From Candidatus Ruminimicrobiellum bubulum (lineage in GTDB: Bacteria; Elusimicrobiota; Endomicrobiia; Endomicrobiales; Endomicrobiaceae), in the NCBI GenBank assembly GCA_017651625.1, contig JAGCCP010000032.1, positions 1 through 54,446 on the forward strand: a stretch of DNA of 54,446 bases. The letters run 5' to 3'. This document shows, piece after piece, positions 19,630 to 24,416 of the stretch. A program made the translations under genes and the position numbers. The notes below the pieces were generated by a model. The model worked only from the letters and a program-made list of their open reading frames with translations, did not search any database and was not told where the DNA came from. Position 1 is the stretch's first letter. Each line of letters begins with the position of its first letter.

Positions 19630-20220
19630 TTATTTAAAATTTTCTATAACTTTTTTTATTGCTTGAGGAAATATTATATGTTCTTGAACCAATACTCTTG
19701 CAGCAACATCTTCCGGACTATCCGTTTCATAAACGGGCACTTCTTTTTGAAGTATTATTGAACCGGTATCATAATTTTCGTCTACATAGTGAACCGTAGG
19801 GCCGGACTTTGTTTCTTTTGCTTTTACTACCGCCTCATGAACAAAATGTCCGTACATTCCTTTACCGCCAAACTTCGGAAGCAAAGCAGGATGAATATTT
19901 AATATTTTCGATTTATATTCTTTAACAATATGTTCGGAAACTTTCTTCATGTATCCCGCCAAACATATCAAATCCGCACCGGACTCTTTTATAAGGTTAT
20001 ACATTTTATTATCGTAATCTTGTTTATCCATATTTTTATAATCCAATGCAACCGCTTTAATGTTTGCATTTTTTGCTCTTTCAAGTCCGTAAGCGTTGGG
20101 GTTATTTGATATAACGATAACAACTTCGGCAATATCTTTCAACACTCCGTTTTTTGTTGAATCTATTATAGATTGTAAATTGGTTCCGCTGCCTGAAACT
20201 AATACCGCTAACTTTTTCAT
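19630..20220 (-). CDS. purN: Phosphoribosylglycinamide formyltransferase
   Basis: Transfers the formyl group of 10-formyl-THF to GAR in de novo purine synthesis. 196 residues. It opens with LAVLVSGSGTNLQSI, the phosphate-binding loop. The catalytic triad region is visible as Asn in LNIHPALLP, the following His, and Asp in HYVDENYDTG. The start codon overlaps the purM stop (TAATG arrangement), so translation is coupled to purM. Confidence 0.97.
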   Translation of the reverse strand: MKKLAVLVSGSGTNLQSIIDSTKNGVLKDIAEVVIVISNNPNAYGLERAKNANIKAVALDYKNMDKQDYDNKMYNLIKESGADLICLAGYMKKVSEHIVKEYKSKILNIHPALLPKFGGKGMYGHFVHEAVVKAKETKSGPTVHYVDENYDTGSIILQKEVPVYETDSPEDVAARVLVQEHIIFPQAIKKVIENFK

Positions 20221-21185
20221 TATATTATTTCCACACCTTTTTTACCTTTTTGAACAAATCCTATAACTTTAGAACCTTTCAAGAATTTGTGAACGGCTTG
20301 TGCATGTTCCGGTCTGACAAATATTGCCATACCGATACCCATATTCAATGTTCTGTAAATATCTTTTTCCGGAACATTTCCTTTCTTTTGAATTATGTTA
20401 AATATTTCAGGAACTTTCCAAGAACCTTTGTTTATTATTACATGTGCATCATTAGGTAAAATTCTTCCTATTTTATCGTAGAAGCTTCCGCCAGTAATAT
20501 GAGCTATACCGGTTATCTTATTCTTTTTACCGTTATTGAATTTTTTAAGTGCCGCCAAAACTTCTTTAACATAAATTTTCGTGGGAGCCAACAACTCTTT
20601 TGAATATTTTTTTAATTCTTTTTCGGAAAAAACTTTTCTTATTAAAGAATATCCGTTGGAATGAGGACCGCTTGAAGGAAGACCTATTACAACATCTCCT
20701 TCTTTAATATCTTTACCGGTAATCTCTTTCCCTTTTTCGATTATACCTACGGCAAAACCTGCCAAATCGTATTCTTCACCTTTATAAAAGCTTGGCATTT
20801 CAGCAGTTTCACCGCCGATAAGTTGAGCATTGGATTGTTTGCAACCGTTAATAATACCGCTCACTACTTTTTCAGTAAGAGAAACATTAAGTTTTCCGCA
20901 AGCAAAATAATCTAAAAAGAAAAGAGGTTTTGCACCTACGCAAATTATATCGTTAACGTTCATTGCAACCAAATCTATACCTACGGTATCGTGTTTGTTT
21001 ACTAAAAACGCAATTTTCAATTTTGTTCCTACACCGTCGGTAGAACTAACCAAATTATATTTTGTATTTTCTACAGGAAAAGCTCCGCCGAAACCGCCGA
21101 CTTTAGGAAGTTTTTTCTTAAGTCTTTTAACCAACTCGTTTCCGGCATCAATATTTACACCTGCTTTTTGATAAGTTATAGCCAT
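20220..21185 (-). CDS. purM: Phosphoribosylformylglycinamidine cyclo-ligase
   Basis: ATP-dependent closure of FGAM to AIR, in the PurM/ThiL/SelD superfamily. 321 residues. Motifs: YQKAGVNIDAGNELVKRLK at the N-terminus, SSTDGVGTKLKIA (nucleotide binding), MNVNDIICVGAKPLFFLDY and GETAEMPSFY. GGAGG precedes the ATG. It is the first gene of purM-purN-purB and is divergent from the thi operon, whose promoter lies about 90 bases upstream on the other strand. No clear purine riboswitch is seen in the short upstream spacer. Confidence 0.97.
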   Translation of the reverse strand: MAITYQKAGVNIDAGNELVKRLKKKLPKVGGFGGAFPVENTKYNLVSSTDGVGTKLKIAFLVNKHDTVGIDLVAMNVNDIICVGAKPLFFLDYFACGKLNVSLTEKVVSGIINGCKQSNAQLIGGETAEMPSFYKGEEYDLAGFAVGIIEKGKEITGKDIKEGDVVIGLPSSGPHSNGYSLIRKVFSEKELKKYSKELLAPTKIYVKEVLAALKKFNNGKKNKITGIAHITGGSFYDKIGRILPNDAHVIINKGSWKVPEIFNIIQKKGNVPEKDIYRTLNMGIGMAIFVRPEHAQAVHKFLKGSKVIGFVQKGKKGVEII

Positions 21186-21276: not shown

Positions 21277-21306
21277 TTGACAAAAGGTAATTTTTTATAG
21301 TATCAT
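21277..21306 (+). promoter_or_regulatory. Promoter of the thi operon
   Basis: TTGACA (perfect) is followed after 18 bases by TATCAT (5 of 6). The expected start near 21313 gives a leader of about 85 bases that holds little besides the riboswitch/terminator hairpin. Confidence 0.65.
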
Positions 21307-21318
21307 AAGTTGTCATTT

Positions 21319-21386
21319 TAAATAGAATATGTTATGGGGGGCACCACCTCGGGCGCCAAAAACTTCATTCATATTCTATTTTTTTA
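21319..21386 (+). promoter_or_regulatory. Probable HMP-PP riboswitch (thiS motif) with embedded terminator
   Basis: A perfect 11-bp stem, AATAGAATATG (21321-21331) with CATATTCTATT (21370-21380), runs straight into seven T, which is the form of an intrinsic terminator. Its apical part is strikingly G/C-rich for this genome (TGGGGGGCACCACC, then GGGCGCC) and can form an inner GGCACC/GGCGCC helix. It is followed by AAGGAG and thiS. This matches the published HMP-PP riboswitch class, in which a very small aptamer is embedded in a terminator stem upstream of thiS. There is no CTGAGA or ACCTGAT element, so it is not a TPP riboswitch. I did not align it to the covariance model. Confidence 0.7.
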
Positions 21387-21399
21387 TTAAGGAGCTAAA

Positions 21400-21594
21400 A
21401 TGAAAGTCAACGGAAAAGAAGTTGTTATAAAAAGTACTCAAACTATATACGAATATTTAAAAAACAACAATTATAATTTGGAACGAATAGTAATTGAGTT
21501 AAACGGTGAAATCGTTTCCAAAGATAAATATAACACTATAAATTTAAAAGATACCGATGTTATGGAAGTGCTGACTTTTGTCGGCGGCGGCTAA
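21400..21594 (+). CDS. thiS: Sulfur carrier protein ThiS
   Basis: A 64-residue ubiquitin-fold protein ending in the required C-terminal glycines (FVGGG), which are adenylated and converted to a thiocarboxylate that donates sulfur to the thiamin thiazole. AAGGAG lies seven bases before the ATG. It is the first gene of thiS-thiG-thiH-thiE, but an unusual 240-base folded spacer separates it from thiG. No ThiF or MoeB-type adenylating enzyme is encoded in the window. Confidence 0.93.
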   Translation: MKVNGKEVVIKSTQTIYEYLKNNNYNLERIVIELNGEIVSKDKYNTINLKDTDVMEVLTFVGGG

Positions 21595-21596
21595 AA

Positions 21597-21820
21597 GAGC
21601 GTTCTTTTAAAATTTCTCATTTTCAAGCAAAAAAGCCATTCGTTTGAAAAATTTAAAGCCAACCGCAGAACTCGCTTTTTTCTAACAACCTAATGAAGCG
21701 AAAAAAGCTCAAACATCAGCGGTTTAAAAATTTTTTAGATTTATAATTTTTGCTCTAAATTTTTCTACACTCATTGACGGCTTTAATCATGCTTTTCAAA
21801 TGAAAATTTTAAAAGAACTT
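21597..21820. repeat. Foldback element between thiS and thiG
   Basis: The spacer is one nested inverted repeat. The outer arms, GTTCTTTTAAAATTT (21601-21615) and AAATTTTAAAAGAAC (21804-21818), are perfectly complementary. Further in, a second structure pairs ACCGC with GCGGT and GCTTTTTTC with GAAAAAAGC (about 21662-21727). The thiG ribosome site lies immediately outside the right arm. There is no ORF of note. Either a foldback mobile element or an operon-internal structured RNA. Confidence 0.6.
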
Positions 21821-21833
21821 AAGGAGAAATATA

Positions 21834-22610
21834 ATGGAAAATAATGATCAATTAATAATTGCAGGACATAAGTTTTCTTCTCGATTTATTTTAGGTTCAG
21901 GAAAATTTTCGTTGAATTTGGTAAAAGCGGCGGTTGAATCGGCAGGAGCTGAAATCGTAACACTTGCTTTGCGTCGTGCAAACACAAAAACAGAATATAA
22001 TATATTAGATTTTATACCTAAAACGGTAACTCTTTTACCTAACACTTCAGGTGCAAGAACGGCGGAAGAAGCGGTTAGAATAGCAAGACTTTCCAGAGAA
22101 CTCGGATGCGGAGATTTTGTAAAAATCGAAGTTATAAAAGATACAAAATTTTTGTTACCGGACAACTACGAAACAATAAAAGCAACGGAAATTCTTGCAA
22201 AAGAAGGATTTGTTGTAATGCCTTACATGTATCCCGACCTAAATGCAGCAAGAGATTTGGCAAATGCGGGTGCTGCAACAATTATGCCTTTAGCTGCTCC
22301 TATAGGCAGCAATTTAGGACTTCTTACAAAACATTTCATTAAAATAATTATAGATGAAATAAAGTTGCCGGTAATTGTTGATGCCGGTATAGGTTCTCCT
22401 TCTCAAGCATGCGAAATAATGCAGGAAGGTGCAGCAGCCGTTATGGTAAACACAGCAATTGCAACTGCAAAAAACATAAATGAAATGGCAGAAGCTTTTA
22501 AACTTGCAATTATCGCAGGAAGAAAAGCTTATCTTGCCGGGCTTGGCAGAGTTTTAAACTTTAAAGCGGAAGCATCCAGTCCTTTGATAGACTTTTTGGA
22601 GGACAAATAA
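21834..22610 (+). CDS. thiG: Thiazole synthase
   Basis: Forms the thiazole phosphate ring from DXP, dehydroglycine and ThiS thiocarboxylate. The 258-residue TIM barrel opens with [15 protein letters not shown]; Lys-containing KIEVI and the phosphate loops [11 protein letters not shown] and [11 protein letters not shown] are typical. AAGGAG precedes the ATG. It ends one base before thiH, so ThiG and ThiH are coupled and likely work together as a complex. Confidence 0.97.
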
Positions 22611-22611
22611 T

Positions 22612-23742
22612 ATGTTTTATAAAAACATGGAACAAATAAAGTCCGATATGTTGGAACAAGTTTTGAATCTGACAAACGGTTACGATTATAACATATACAC
22701 TAAAAACGATGTCCAAAAAACATTAAACAAAGAAATTTTGGATATTGAAGATTTAAAAGTTTTGTTATCCCCCGCAGCGACGGATTTTTTAAACTTAATT
22801 GCACATAAAGCACAATATGAAACAAGAAAACATTTCGGTTCAAGTATATCTTTGTTTACACCTTTATACATTTCAAACTATTGCGAAAATCAGTGCACTT
22901 ATTGCGGATACAATTGCAAAAACAATATACACAGAGGCAAACTTACCATTGAAGAAATAGAGAAAGAGTTTAAAGCAATATCTCAAACAGGACTTGAAGA
23001 TATTCTTATTCTTACCGGTGAATCAAGAACAGCATCAAGTGTAGAATATATCGGTGAAGCGGTAAAACTTGCAAAAAAATATTTTTCTTCAATATCAATA
23101 GAAATATATCCGTTAAATACGGACGAATACAAATATCTTTGCGAATGCGGAGCAGATTTTGTTTGTGTTTATCAGGAAACTTATAATAAAGAAAGATATA
23201 AAGAGTTACATTTAGCAGGACCGAAATCCGTTTTCGAATACAGATTTTATGCTCAGGAAAGAGCTGCCCTTGCAGGTATGAGAGGAGTATCCTTAGGAAT
23301 CCTTTTCGGACTAGACGATTTTAGAAAAGATGCTTTTTCCACTGCAGTTCATGCTTATTTGTTACAGCAAAAGTATCCGGATCTTAAAATAGGATTTTCC
23401 GTTCCGAGATTAAGGCCTTACATTCATGAACATAAAGAGCAAAATCCGCACTATGTGAACGAAAAGCAATTGTTCCAAGCATTATGTGCTTACAGGCTGT
23501 TTATGCCGTTTTCCGACATAACAATATCTACAAGAGAAAGAGCAGGGTTCAGAGATAATGTTATCGGTGTTTGTGCAACAAAAATTTCGGCAGGAGTAAA
23601 AACATCAGTAGGCGGGCATGAAGATGATGCTAAAGGCGACGAACAATTTGAAATTTCGGATTCGAGAAGTGTTGCCGAAATAGTGGATACAATAAAACAA
23701 AAAGGTCTTTATCCGGTATTCAGTAACCACATAAGACTTTAA
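22612..23742 (+). CDS. thiH: 2-Iminoacetate synthase
   Basis: Radical-SAM tyrosine lyase that makes the dehydroglycine needed by ThiG in anaerobes (instead of ThiO). The cluster motif is CxxxCxxC at Cys91, Cys95 and Cys98 (CENQCTYCG). 376 residues, full length, with the C-terminal BATS-like domain ending STRERAGFRDNVIGV... GGAGG inside the thiG end supports the start. Its TAA stop lies at the edge of a 9-bp palindrome in the following spacer. Confidence 0.96.
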   Translation: MFYKNMEQIKSDMLEQVLNLTNGYDYNIYTKNDVQKTLNKEILDIEDLKVLLSPAATDFLNLIAHKAQYETRKHFGSSISLFTPLYISNYCENQCTYCGYNCKNNIHRGKLTIEEIEKEFKAISQTGLEDILILTGESRTASSVEYIGEAVKLAKKYFSSISIEIYPLNTDEYKYLCECGADFVCVYQETYNKERYKELHLAGPKSVFEYRFYAQERAALAGMRGVSLGILFGLDDFRKDAFSTAVHAYLLQQKYPDLKIGFSVPRLRPYIHEHKEQNPHYVNEKQLFQALCAYRLFMPFSDITISTRERAGFRDNVIGVCATKISAGVKTSVGGHEDDAKGDEQFEISDSRSVAEIVDTIKQKGLYPVFSNHIRL

Positions 23743-23834: not shown

Positions 23835-24416
23835 ATGAAAATTATTGGTATAACTAACAGATTATTATGTAAAAATGACTTTTTCGAACAAATAAAACTT
23901 ATTTGTAAAGAAAATCTTTATGCTTTGATTTTGAGAGAGAAAGATTTAGATGACAAAACTTATGAAGAGTTTGCCGTTAAATGTAACGATATATGTAAAG
24001 AAAACAATGTTTTGTTTTTTATAAACACAAAAATTAACATTGCACAAAAATTAAATATAAAAAACATACAAGTTTCGTTTGAAGATTTTGTAACAAAGAA
24101 AGAAGTTTTAAATTCTTTTGATATCGTCGCCGTTTCGATACATTCGTTAAGTGAAGCTCTAACCATACAAAAGTTTGTTGAAGAAACAAACCAAAATATT
24201 TTTCTTATTGCAGGCCATATTTTTGAAACGGATTGTAAAAAAGGATTAGCTCCAAGAGGAATAGAATTTTTAAAAGAGATTTGTGCCAACGTGGAAATTC
24301 CGGTTTTTGCAATCGGCGGAATAAACAAAGATACTATTAAACAACTGAAGGGTATAAACATCGAAGGCGTTTGTTCGATGTCAGAACTGATGATAAAATC
24401 GGCAATTAGTAATTAA
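23835..24416 (+). CDS. thiE: Thiamine-phosphate synthase-like protein (ThiE/TenI family)
   Basis: A 193-residue TIM-barrel protein. ThiE joins HMP-PP and thiazole phosphate; TenI-like relatives instead aromatise the thiazole. ThiE-like elements: ITNR at the N-terminus, LREKDLDD (Arg and Lys that contact pyrophosphate), AGHIFETDCKKGLAPRG in place of GxIFxTxSK, and AIGGINKDTI. The pyrophosphate loop is less standard than in E. coli ThiE, so TenI activity is a real alternative. It is the last gene of the thi operon. There is no strong ribosome site in front because the preceding spacer is a palindrome. Confidence 0.75.
   Translation: MKIIGITNRLLCKNDFFEQIKLICKENLYALILREKDLDDKTYEEFAVKCNDICKENNVLFFINTKINIAQKLNIKNIQVSFEDFVTKKEVLNSFDIVAVSIHSLSEALTIQKFVEETNQNIFLIAGHIFETDCKKGLAPRGIEFLKEICANVEIPVFAIGGINKDTIKQLKGINIEGVCSMSELMIKSAISN

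Follow-up and report, generated by a model that had tools for sequence, protein, structure and literature searches.

A probable HMP-PP (thiS-motif) riboswitch in front of the thi operon of Candidatus Ruminimicrobiellum bubulum, phylum Elusimicrobiota

The window, that is, the whole stretch of DNA analysed, comprises 54,446 nucleotides of Candidatus Ruminimicrobiellum bubulum (Elusimicrobiota, Endomicrobiaceae; assembly GCA_017651625.1, contig JAGCCP010000032.1). It carries a thi operon with thiS, thiG, thiH and a gene of the TMP-TENI family, preceded by a promoter and a short leader that folds into a terminator hairpin. The coordinates of all features are detailed in Table 1. The TMP-TENI gene may be a thiazole tautomerase, and a full ThiE is encoded elsewhere in the genome.

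Table 1. Features of the thiS leader and the thi operon in the window.
Feature	Position	Strand	Evidence
Sigma-70-type promoter, TTGACA-18-TATCAT	21277..21306	+	Sequence, promoter scan, 11/11 motif-bearing Elusimicrobiota loci
5' leader, about 87 nt	21313..21399	+	Start inferred from the -10 box
Lower terminator stem, 5' arm	21320..21331	+	Sequence, fold, covariance model
Conserved GGGG, equivalent to G24-G27 of the published RNA	21336..21339	+	Fold, alignment, published numbering
P2 hairpin with conserved CACC-ACC-NN-GGGYG	21340..21357	+	Fold, alignments of loci
Lower terminator stem, 3' arm	21370..21381	+	Sequence, fold, covariance model
Terminator run of 7 T	21379..21385	+	Sequence
Ribosome-binding site AAGGAG	21389..21394	+	Sequence
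thiS, sulfur carrier protein	21400..21594	+	TIGR01683, 70.3 bits (cut-off 37.45); PF02597
thiG, thiazole synthase	21834..22610	+	PF05690, 332.6 bits
thiH, 2-iminoacetate synthase	22612..23742	+	TIGR02351, 506.5 bits (cut-off 380)
TMP-TENI family gene (thiE- or tenI-like)	23835..24416	+	PF02581, 126.7 bits; under both the thiE and the tenI NCBIfam cut-offs

The promoter boxes (TTGACA, 21277-21282; TATCAT, 21301-21306) are separated by an 18-nt spacer and match the consensus at 11 of 12 positions in the promoter scan, and in all 11 motif-bearing Elusimicrobiota loci a promoter-like pair precedes the core by almost the same distance. The strong promoter ahead of thiS that a first-pass annotation had described was thereby confirmed, as were the seven T, the AAGGAG and the start of thiS behind them. 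Its leader of about 85 bases is present, with a length closer to 87 nt if the start is placed by the -10 box, and its perfect 11-bp A/T stem is also there, but measures 12 bp and includes two G-C pairs besides ten A-T pairs. The tip of the hairpin reads GGGG-NN-CACC-ACC-NN-GGGYG-NN. The region 21305-21400 folds at -23.6 kcal/mol (z -3.1), a value equalled by 1 of 200 shuffles, and together with the 12-bp stem and the 7 T this gives the terminator stem followed by at least 6 U that marks the HMP-PP class. A stricter terminator scan, which looks for a short G/C-rich stem and a loop of 3-8 bases, made no call at the site. Since the genome has the 20-base core pattern a single time, and a reversed version of the pattern, used as a control, had no match in a table of 340 Elusimicrobiota genomes, the tip is more than a chance arrangement. 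The plasmids searched with the site gave short A/T-rich matches and nothing else.

The HMP-PP riboswitch RNA described by Atilho et al. 2019 (PMC6478431) is numbered from the transcription start; its terminator pairs G24-27 with positions 46-49, its loop comprises 35-39, and G26 and C35 are required for the response. When the GGGG was set on 24-27, CACC fell on 30-33, A on 34, CC on 35-36 and GGG on 39-41, with the 3' partner of the Bacillota loci beginning at about 46. In this comparison, made from the published numbering only, the functional positions (G24-27, loop 35-39, U46-49, G26, C35) fit the pattern GGGG-NN-CACC-A-CC-NN-GGGYG-NN-UUUU, and the equivalents of G26 and C35 in the window are G21338 and C21347. 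Transcription would start about 23-24 nt before the GGGG, as in the published RNA. The spacing of the conserved positions is therefore that of the class, with the particularity that the GGGG pairs here with a CUUC displaced by a stretch of A's.

As the class is presented in PMC6478431 and by Stav et al. 2019 (PMC6429828), it shares with the site a tip embedded in the terminator, a U run directly after the stem, the GGGG and CACCACC core in the same register, and the thiS-operon context, the site preceding the thiazole-branch genes thiS, thiG and thiH. The site differs in a lower stem that is almost entirely A-U, in unpaired extra A's between P2 and the 3' arm, and in having no recognisable P1. 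Its phylum is new relative to the distribution listed in PMC6429828 (Actinobacteria 7%, Firmicutes 27%, metagenomes 66%). The Guanidine-IV riboswitch and the HRC-8-4 motif (PMC8632094) also carry a conserved tip on an intrinsic terminator stem, although in the account given there, compared without sequences, their gene contexts differ from that of the site. A full-text search of open-licence papers returned no report of an HMP-PP riboswitch in Elusimicrobiota, and none of the open-licence papers on Elusimicrobiota and riboswitches had, by title or abstract, their thiamin riboswitches as its subject.

A scan of genome contigs for the core plus a T run gave at least 119 loci. Among the 119 listed, 103 have ThiS within 400 nt, and 109 encode ThiS, ThiG, ThiH or ThiE no more than 3 kb away on their own strand. 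Six of the remaining 10 have less than 450 nt of sequence left; for the other four (L088, L101, L116 and L132) the first frames were assigned to ThiS-like/ThiF, Thiamine_BP and ThiW, in a family tally that covered the 111 of the 119 listed loci with a frame and does not tie a family to an individual locus. The record titles of the listed loci name Bacillota, Coriobacteria, Desulfovibrionaceae, Lentisphaerae, Kiritimatiellae and Candidatus Ruminimicrobiellum. The three loci titled Desulfovibrionaceae, Lentisphaerae and Kiritimatiellae (L083, L089 and L104) have the core plus T run with thiS-like frames downstream, and possibly represent further phyla or binning errors.

From the listed loci, 52 located outside Elusimicrobiota were aligned and used to build a covariance model, R1. 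Changes on both sides were observed in 12 of the 18 pairs of this alignment, and the covariation score was 0.551, versus 0.235 for the shuffled alignment and at most 0.123 for slid versions. Because the core pattern served to pick the training loci, an invariant core among them is no evidence; the pattern did not select for gene context, for covariation in the stem or for the two P2 pairs that vary. R1 matched the window site with 42.4 bits (E 2.3e-8), and no other site in the own genome reached E 0.001 or less; the next match in the window scored 26.4 bits and its aligned sequence has no core. Across the 340 Elusimicrobiota genomes, R1 matched 12, namely the 11 with the core before thiS and, weakly (31.7 bits), a further genome (G177, locus L206). 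The core pattern itself occurs in 14 of the 340, 11 of these being the thiS-operon genomes, and three core-pattern matches in another Elusimicrobiota genus (L030-L032) were not recovered by R1. Weaker R1 matches in L003, L006, L012 and L021 lie away from thiS leaders and were taken as plain terminators.

The first-pass annotation had pointed to the Rfam model of the class as a check, and the positive result comes from our own R1 model. In Rfam 15, no family matched the window at its gathering score; five sRNA and microRNA families near the site (up to E 10) were rejected as chance matches because their scores are far below gathering. In a control with 17 motif-carrying loci, most of them Bacillota, no family fell on the motif in any locus, so Rfam 15 seems to have no thiS-motif model. 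A TPP riboswitch was recognised shortly upstream of the motif in three of the 17 (L046, L101 and L118).

To follow the motif within Elusimicrobiota, ThiG was searched in 61 genomes and matched in 28, of which 13 (L001-L013) encode a ThiG at least 73% identical to that of the window. The core stands before thiS in 11 of these 13 genomes, which belong to three genera. These 11 loci, which a search by ThiG alone had brought up, share an unvarying core on a stem that varies from genus to genus, so that the G/C-rich loop noticed at the outset is indeed conserved in relatives. Two pairs of P2 vary, and they do so jointly (GG/CC, GU/GC, GA/UC, UA/UA; 10 of the 11 loci aligned).

On these sequence grounds, the site is very probably an HMP-PP (thiS-motif) riboswitch that turns transcription on and carries its aptamer in the tip of an intrinsic terminator, and it would add a member to an established riboswitch class, from a phylum new to that class. 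The earlier reading of the architecture and gene context as this class agrees with PMC6478431 and PMC6429828, as far as motif, layout and context are described there, and with the R1 match. The assignment draws on the promoter, hairpin, core, gene context and distribution, on the covariation in relatives and on the TPP riboswitch going undetected; ligand, pseudoknot, direction of switching and kinetics are taken over from the published class. According to the proposed mechanism, when HMP-PP is lacking the nascent leader would zip into the terminator, with the GGGG paired to CUUC (21363-21366), and RNA polymerase would halt at the seven U. Abundant HMP-PP would bind the P2 hairpin at a time when polymerase is close to the U run, aided by a pseudoknot between the GGGG and the loop pyrimidines. 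The GGGG would then be kept from CUUC, the stem would not zip in time, and thiS-thiG-thiH-thiE/tenI would be transcribed, so that thiazole synthesis would be confined to times when the pyrimidine half is at hand.

A TPP riboswitch at the site was rejected, as the TPP riboswitch model RF00059 had no match in the window. In line with the absence of TPP-riboswitch elements claimed in the first-pass annotation, none was detected, under stricter filters, in the 11 genomes of the genus studied (the own genome and ten relatives) or in G013 and G020 of the two other motif-bearing genera; overall, RF00059 matched 11 of 41 genomes under these filters. Two genomes with the same ThiG type and no core (G034 and G028) have a TPP riboswitch upstream of their thi genes (46.0 and 44.8 bits; gathering score 54.3), directly before thiS in the case of L012. 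The locus-level check for TPP riboswitches covered L010-L027; L012 and L013 combine a thi operon of the window type with a TPP riboswitch upstream and no HMP-PP core. The same slot is thus occupied by a TPP riboswitch in two sister genera and by the thiS motif in three. TPP riboswitches repress in the tandem systems described in PMC6478431, whereas the HMP-PP class activates. This distribution supports the suggestion of the first-pass annotation that the pyrimidine precursor, rather than TPP, would control the thi operon in the motif-bearing genera, other regulation being possible too. One bacterial family would present the same operon type under opposite RNA logic, which makes the consequences of a riboswitch swap testable.

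Against the HMP-PP reading stands the fact that the window leader has no P1 above shuffles, although P1, a helix formed upstream that competes with the terminator, is part of the ON state described in PMC6478431. The P1 score in the window is 7, and 98% of 500 shuffles do as well or better, while 57% of the 112 listed loci outside Elusimicrobiota reach a score of 12, versus 10% of shuffles. In 8 of the 11 Elusimicrobiota loci, the 26 nt upstream have a folding energy of 0.0 kcal/mol, and G001, G013 and G006 give -2.3, -1.9 and -1.3, respectively; a fold of 0 was also obtained in 6 of the 112 listed loci outside the phylum, so that P1-poor members are not confined to Elusimicrobiota. The energy gap between the ON and OFF states, a crude estimate over nascent lengths that leaves aside pseudoknot and ligand energies, places nine Elusimicrobiota copies within the range of the other loci. 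Its median is 3.3 kcal/mol in Elusimicrobiota versus 4.8 in the others with the end of the exposed RNA nine bases short of the T run, and 16.9 versus 20.5 kcal/mol at full length. The weakness of the A/U stem may compensate for the lack of P1. By core, covariance model and context the site is a member of the class, possibly a P1-poor variant.

The supply of HMP-PP is the second weak point. ThiC is encoded in the own genome together with the full ThiE and a homoserine-kinase-type gene, thrB (L179, G000:C43), and by coordinates thrB lies next to thiC in most relatives. A canonical ThiD (HMP-P kinase) was not detected above the cut-off in any of 41 genomes, and the sole weak ThiD-like match in the own genome was rejected as a NAD(P)H-hydrate dehydratase. 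HMP-PP must then come from an unrecognised kinase, if the pathway runs; that this is the kinase of the thiE-thiC-thrB cluster is speculation. With no ThiD detected, the case for HMP-PP as the ligand is genuinely incomplete.

Both weak points bear on the first alternative, a constitutive or merely attenuating terminator derived from a riboswitch that has lost its ligand response, perhaps along with P1. In its favour, a stable P1 is lacking from the window and from most Elusimicrobiota copies, the terminator is sound by its fold, and no ThiD exceeds the cut-off; nevertheless, 11 genomes from three genera keep an identical core on diverging stems, the variable P2 pairs change in concert, and the ON-OFF gap is within the range of other loci, which makes this alternative improbable. 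A thiS-motif variant with the same ON mechanism and another ligand (HMP-P, another pyrimidine or a thiazole intermediate) would accommodate both the relatives with no canonical ThiD and the C at core position 19 of the window, which gives an A-C mismatch in P2 where T is usual, but that C also occurs in 4 of the 112 listed loci outside the phylum (the pattern allowed C or T only), most genus relatives have T, and the core bases matching the published functional positions are kept, so that it is very improbable.

With respect to the origin of the operon, a careful ThiG tree of 57 rows separated ThiG of this operon type from ten other Elusimicrobiota ThiG and joined it to Bacillota on starred branches, which suggests a lateral transfer of the operon. 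The transfer is no more than suggested because an AU test with all Elusimicrobiota held as one clade did not reject that arrangement (p 0.23). Nine long or doubtful rows (five Elusimicrobiota and four others) and one duplicate were left out of this tree, which took 35 of the 87 rows from other phyla, all found by the motif and therefore a biased sample; an earlier ThiG tree of 115 rows was made by a quick method only.

A more speculative scenario would join these observations to the HMP-PP reading: a P1-poor HMP-PP riboswitch, whose bound tip alone delays the zipping of an A/U-rich terminator, came from Bacillota into rumen Elusimicrobiota with a thiS-F-G-H operon and sits in the slot used by a TPP riboswitch in the sister genera, replacing end-product repression by precursor activation in cells with no recognisable ThiD. 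We regard this as possible, although doubtful as a whole. The HMP-PP reading itself would extend a rare riboswitch class to a phylum for which no prior report was found, and the P1-poor form raises the question of the minimal size of a working terminator-embedded aptamer.

Additional observations concern the surroundings of the site. The spacer between thiS and thiG (21595-21825) is a dispersed repeat with six genomic copies, itself and five at 78-82% identity. It occupies the position of thiF in other genera, the operon thiF being missing here, and a ThiF/MoeB-type gene is present elsewhere in the own genome (G000:C54). In L013, an insert at about 1300-1490, between thiF and thiG, has ends that look like inverted repeats (GGGTGTGTTAATA at one end), and is another mobile-looking element where the window carries its spacer repeat. 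Directly upstream of the operon, purN and purM are divergently oriented (19630-21185), and the shared intergenic region may be of interest; AIR, the substrate of ThiC, comes from the purine pathway.
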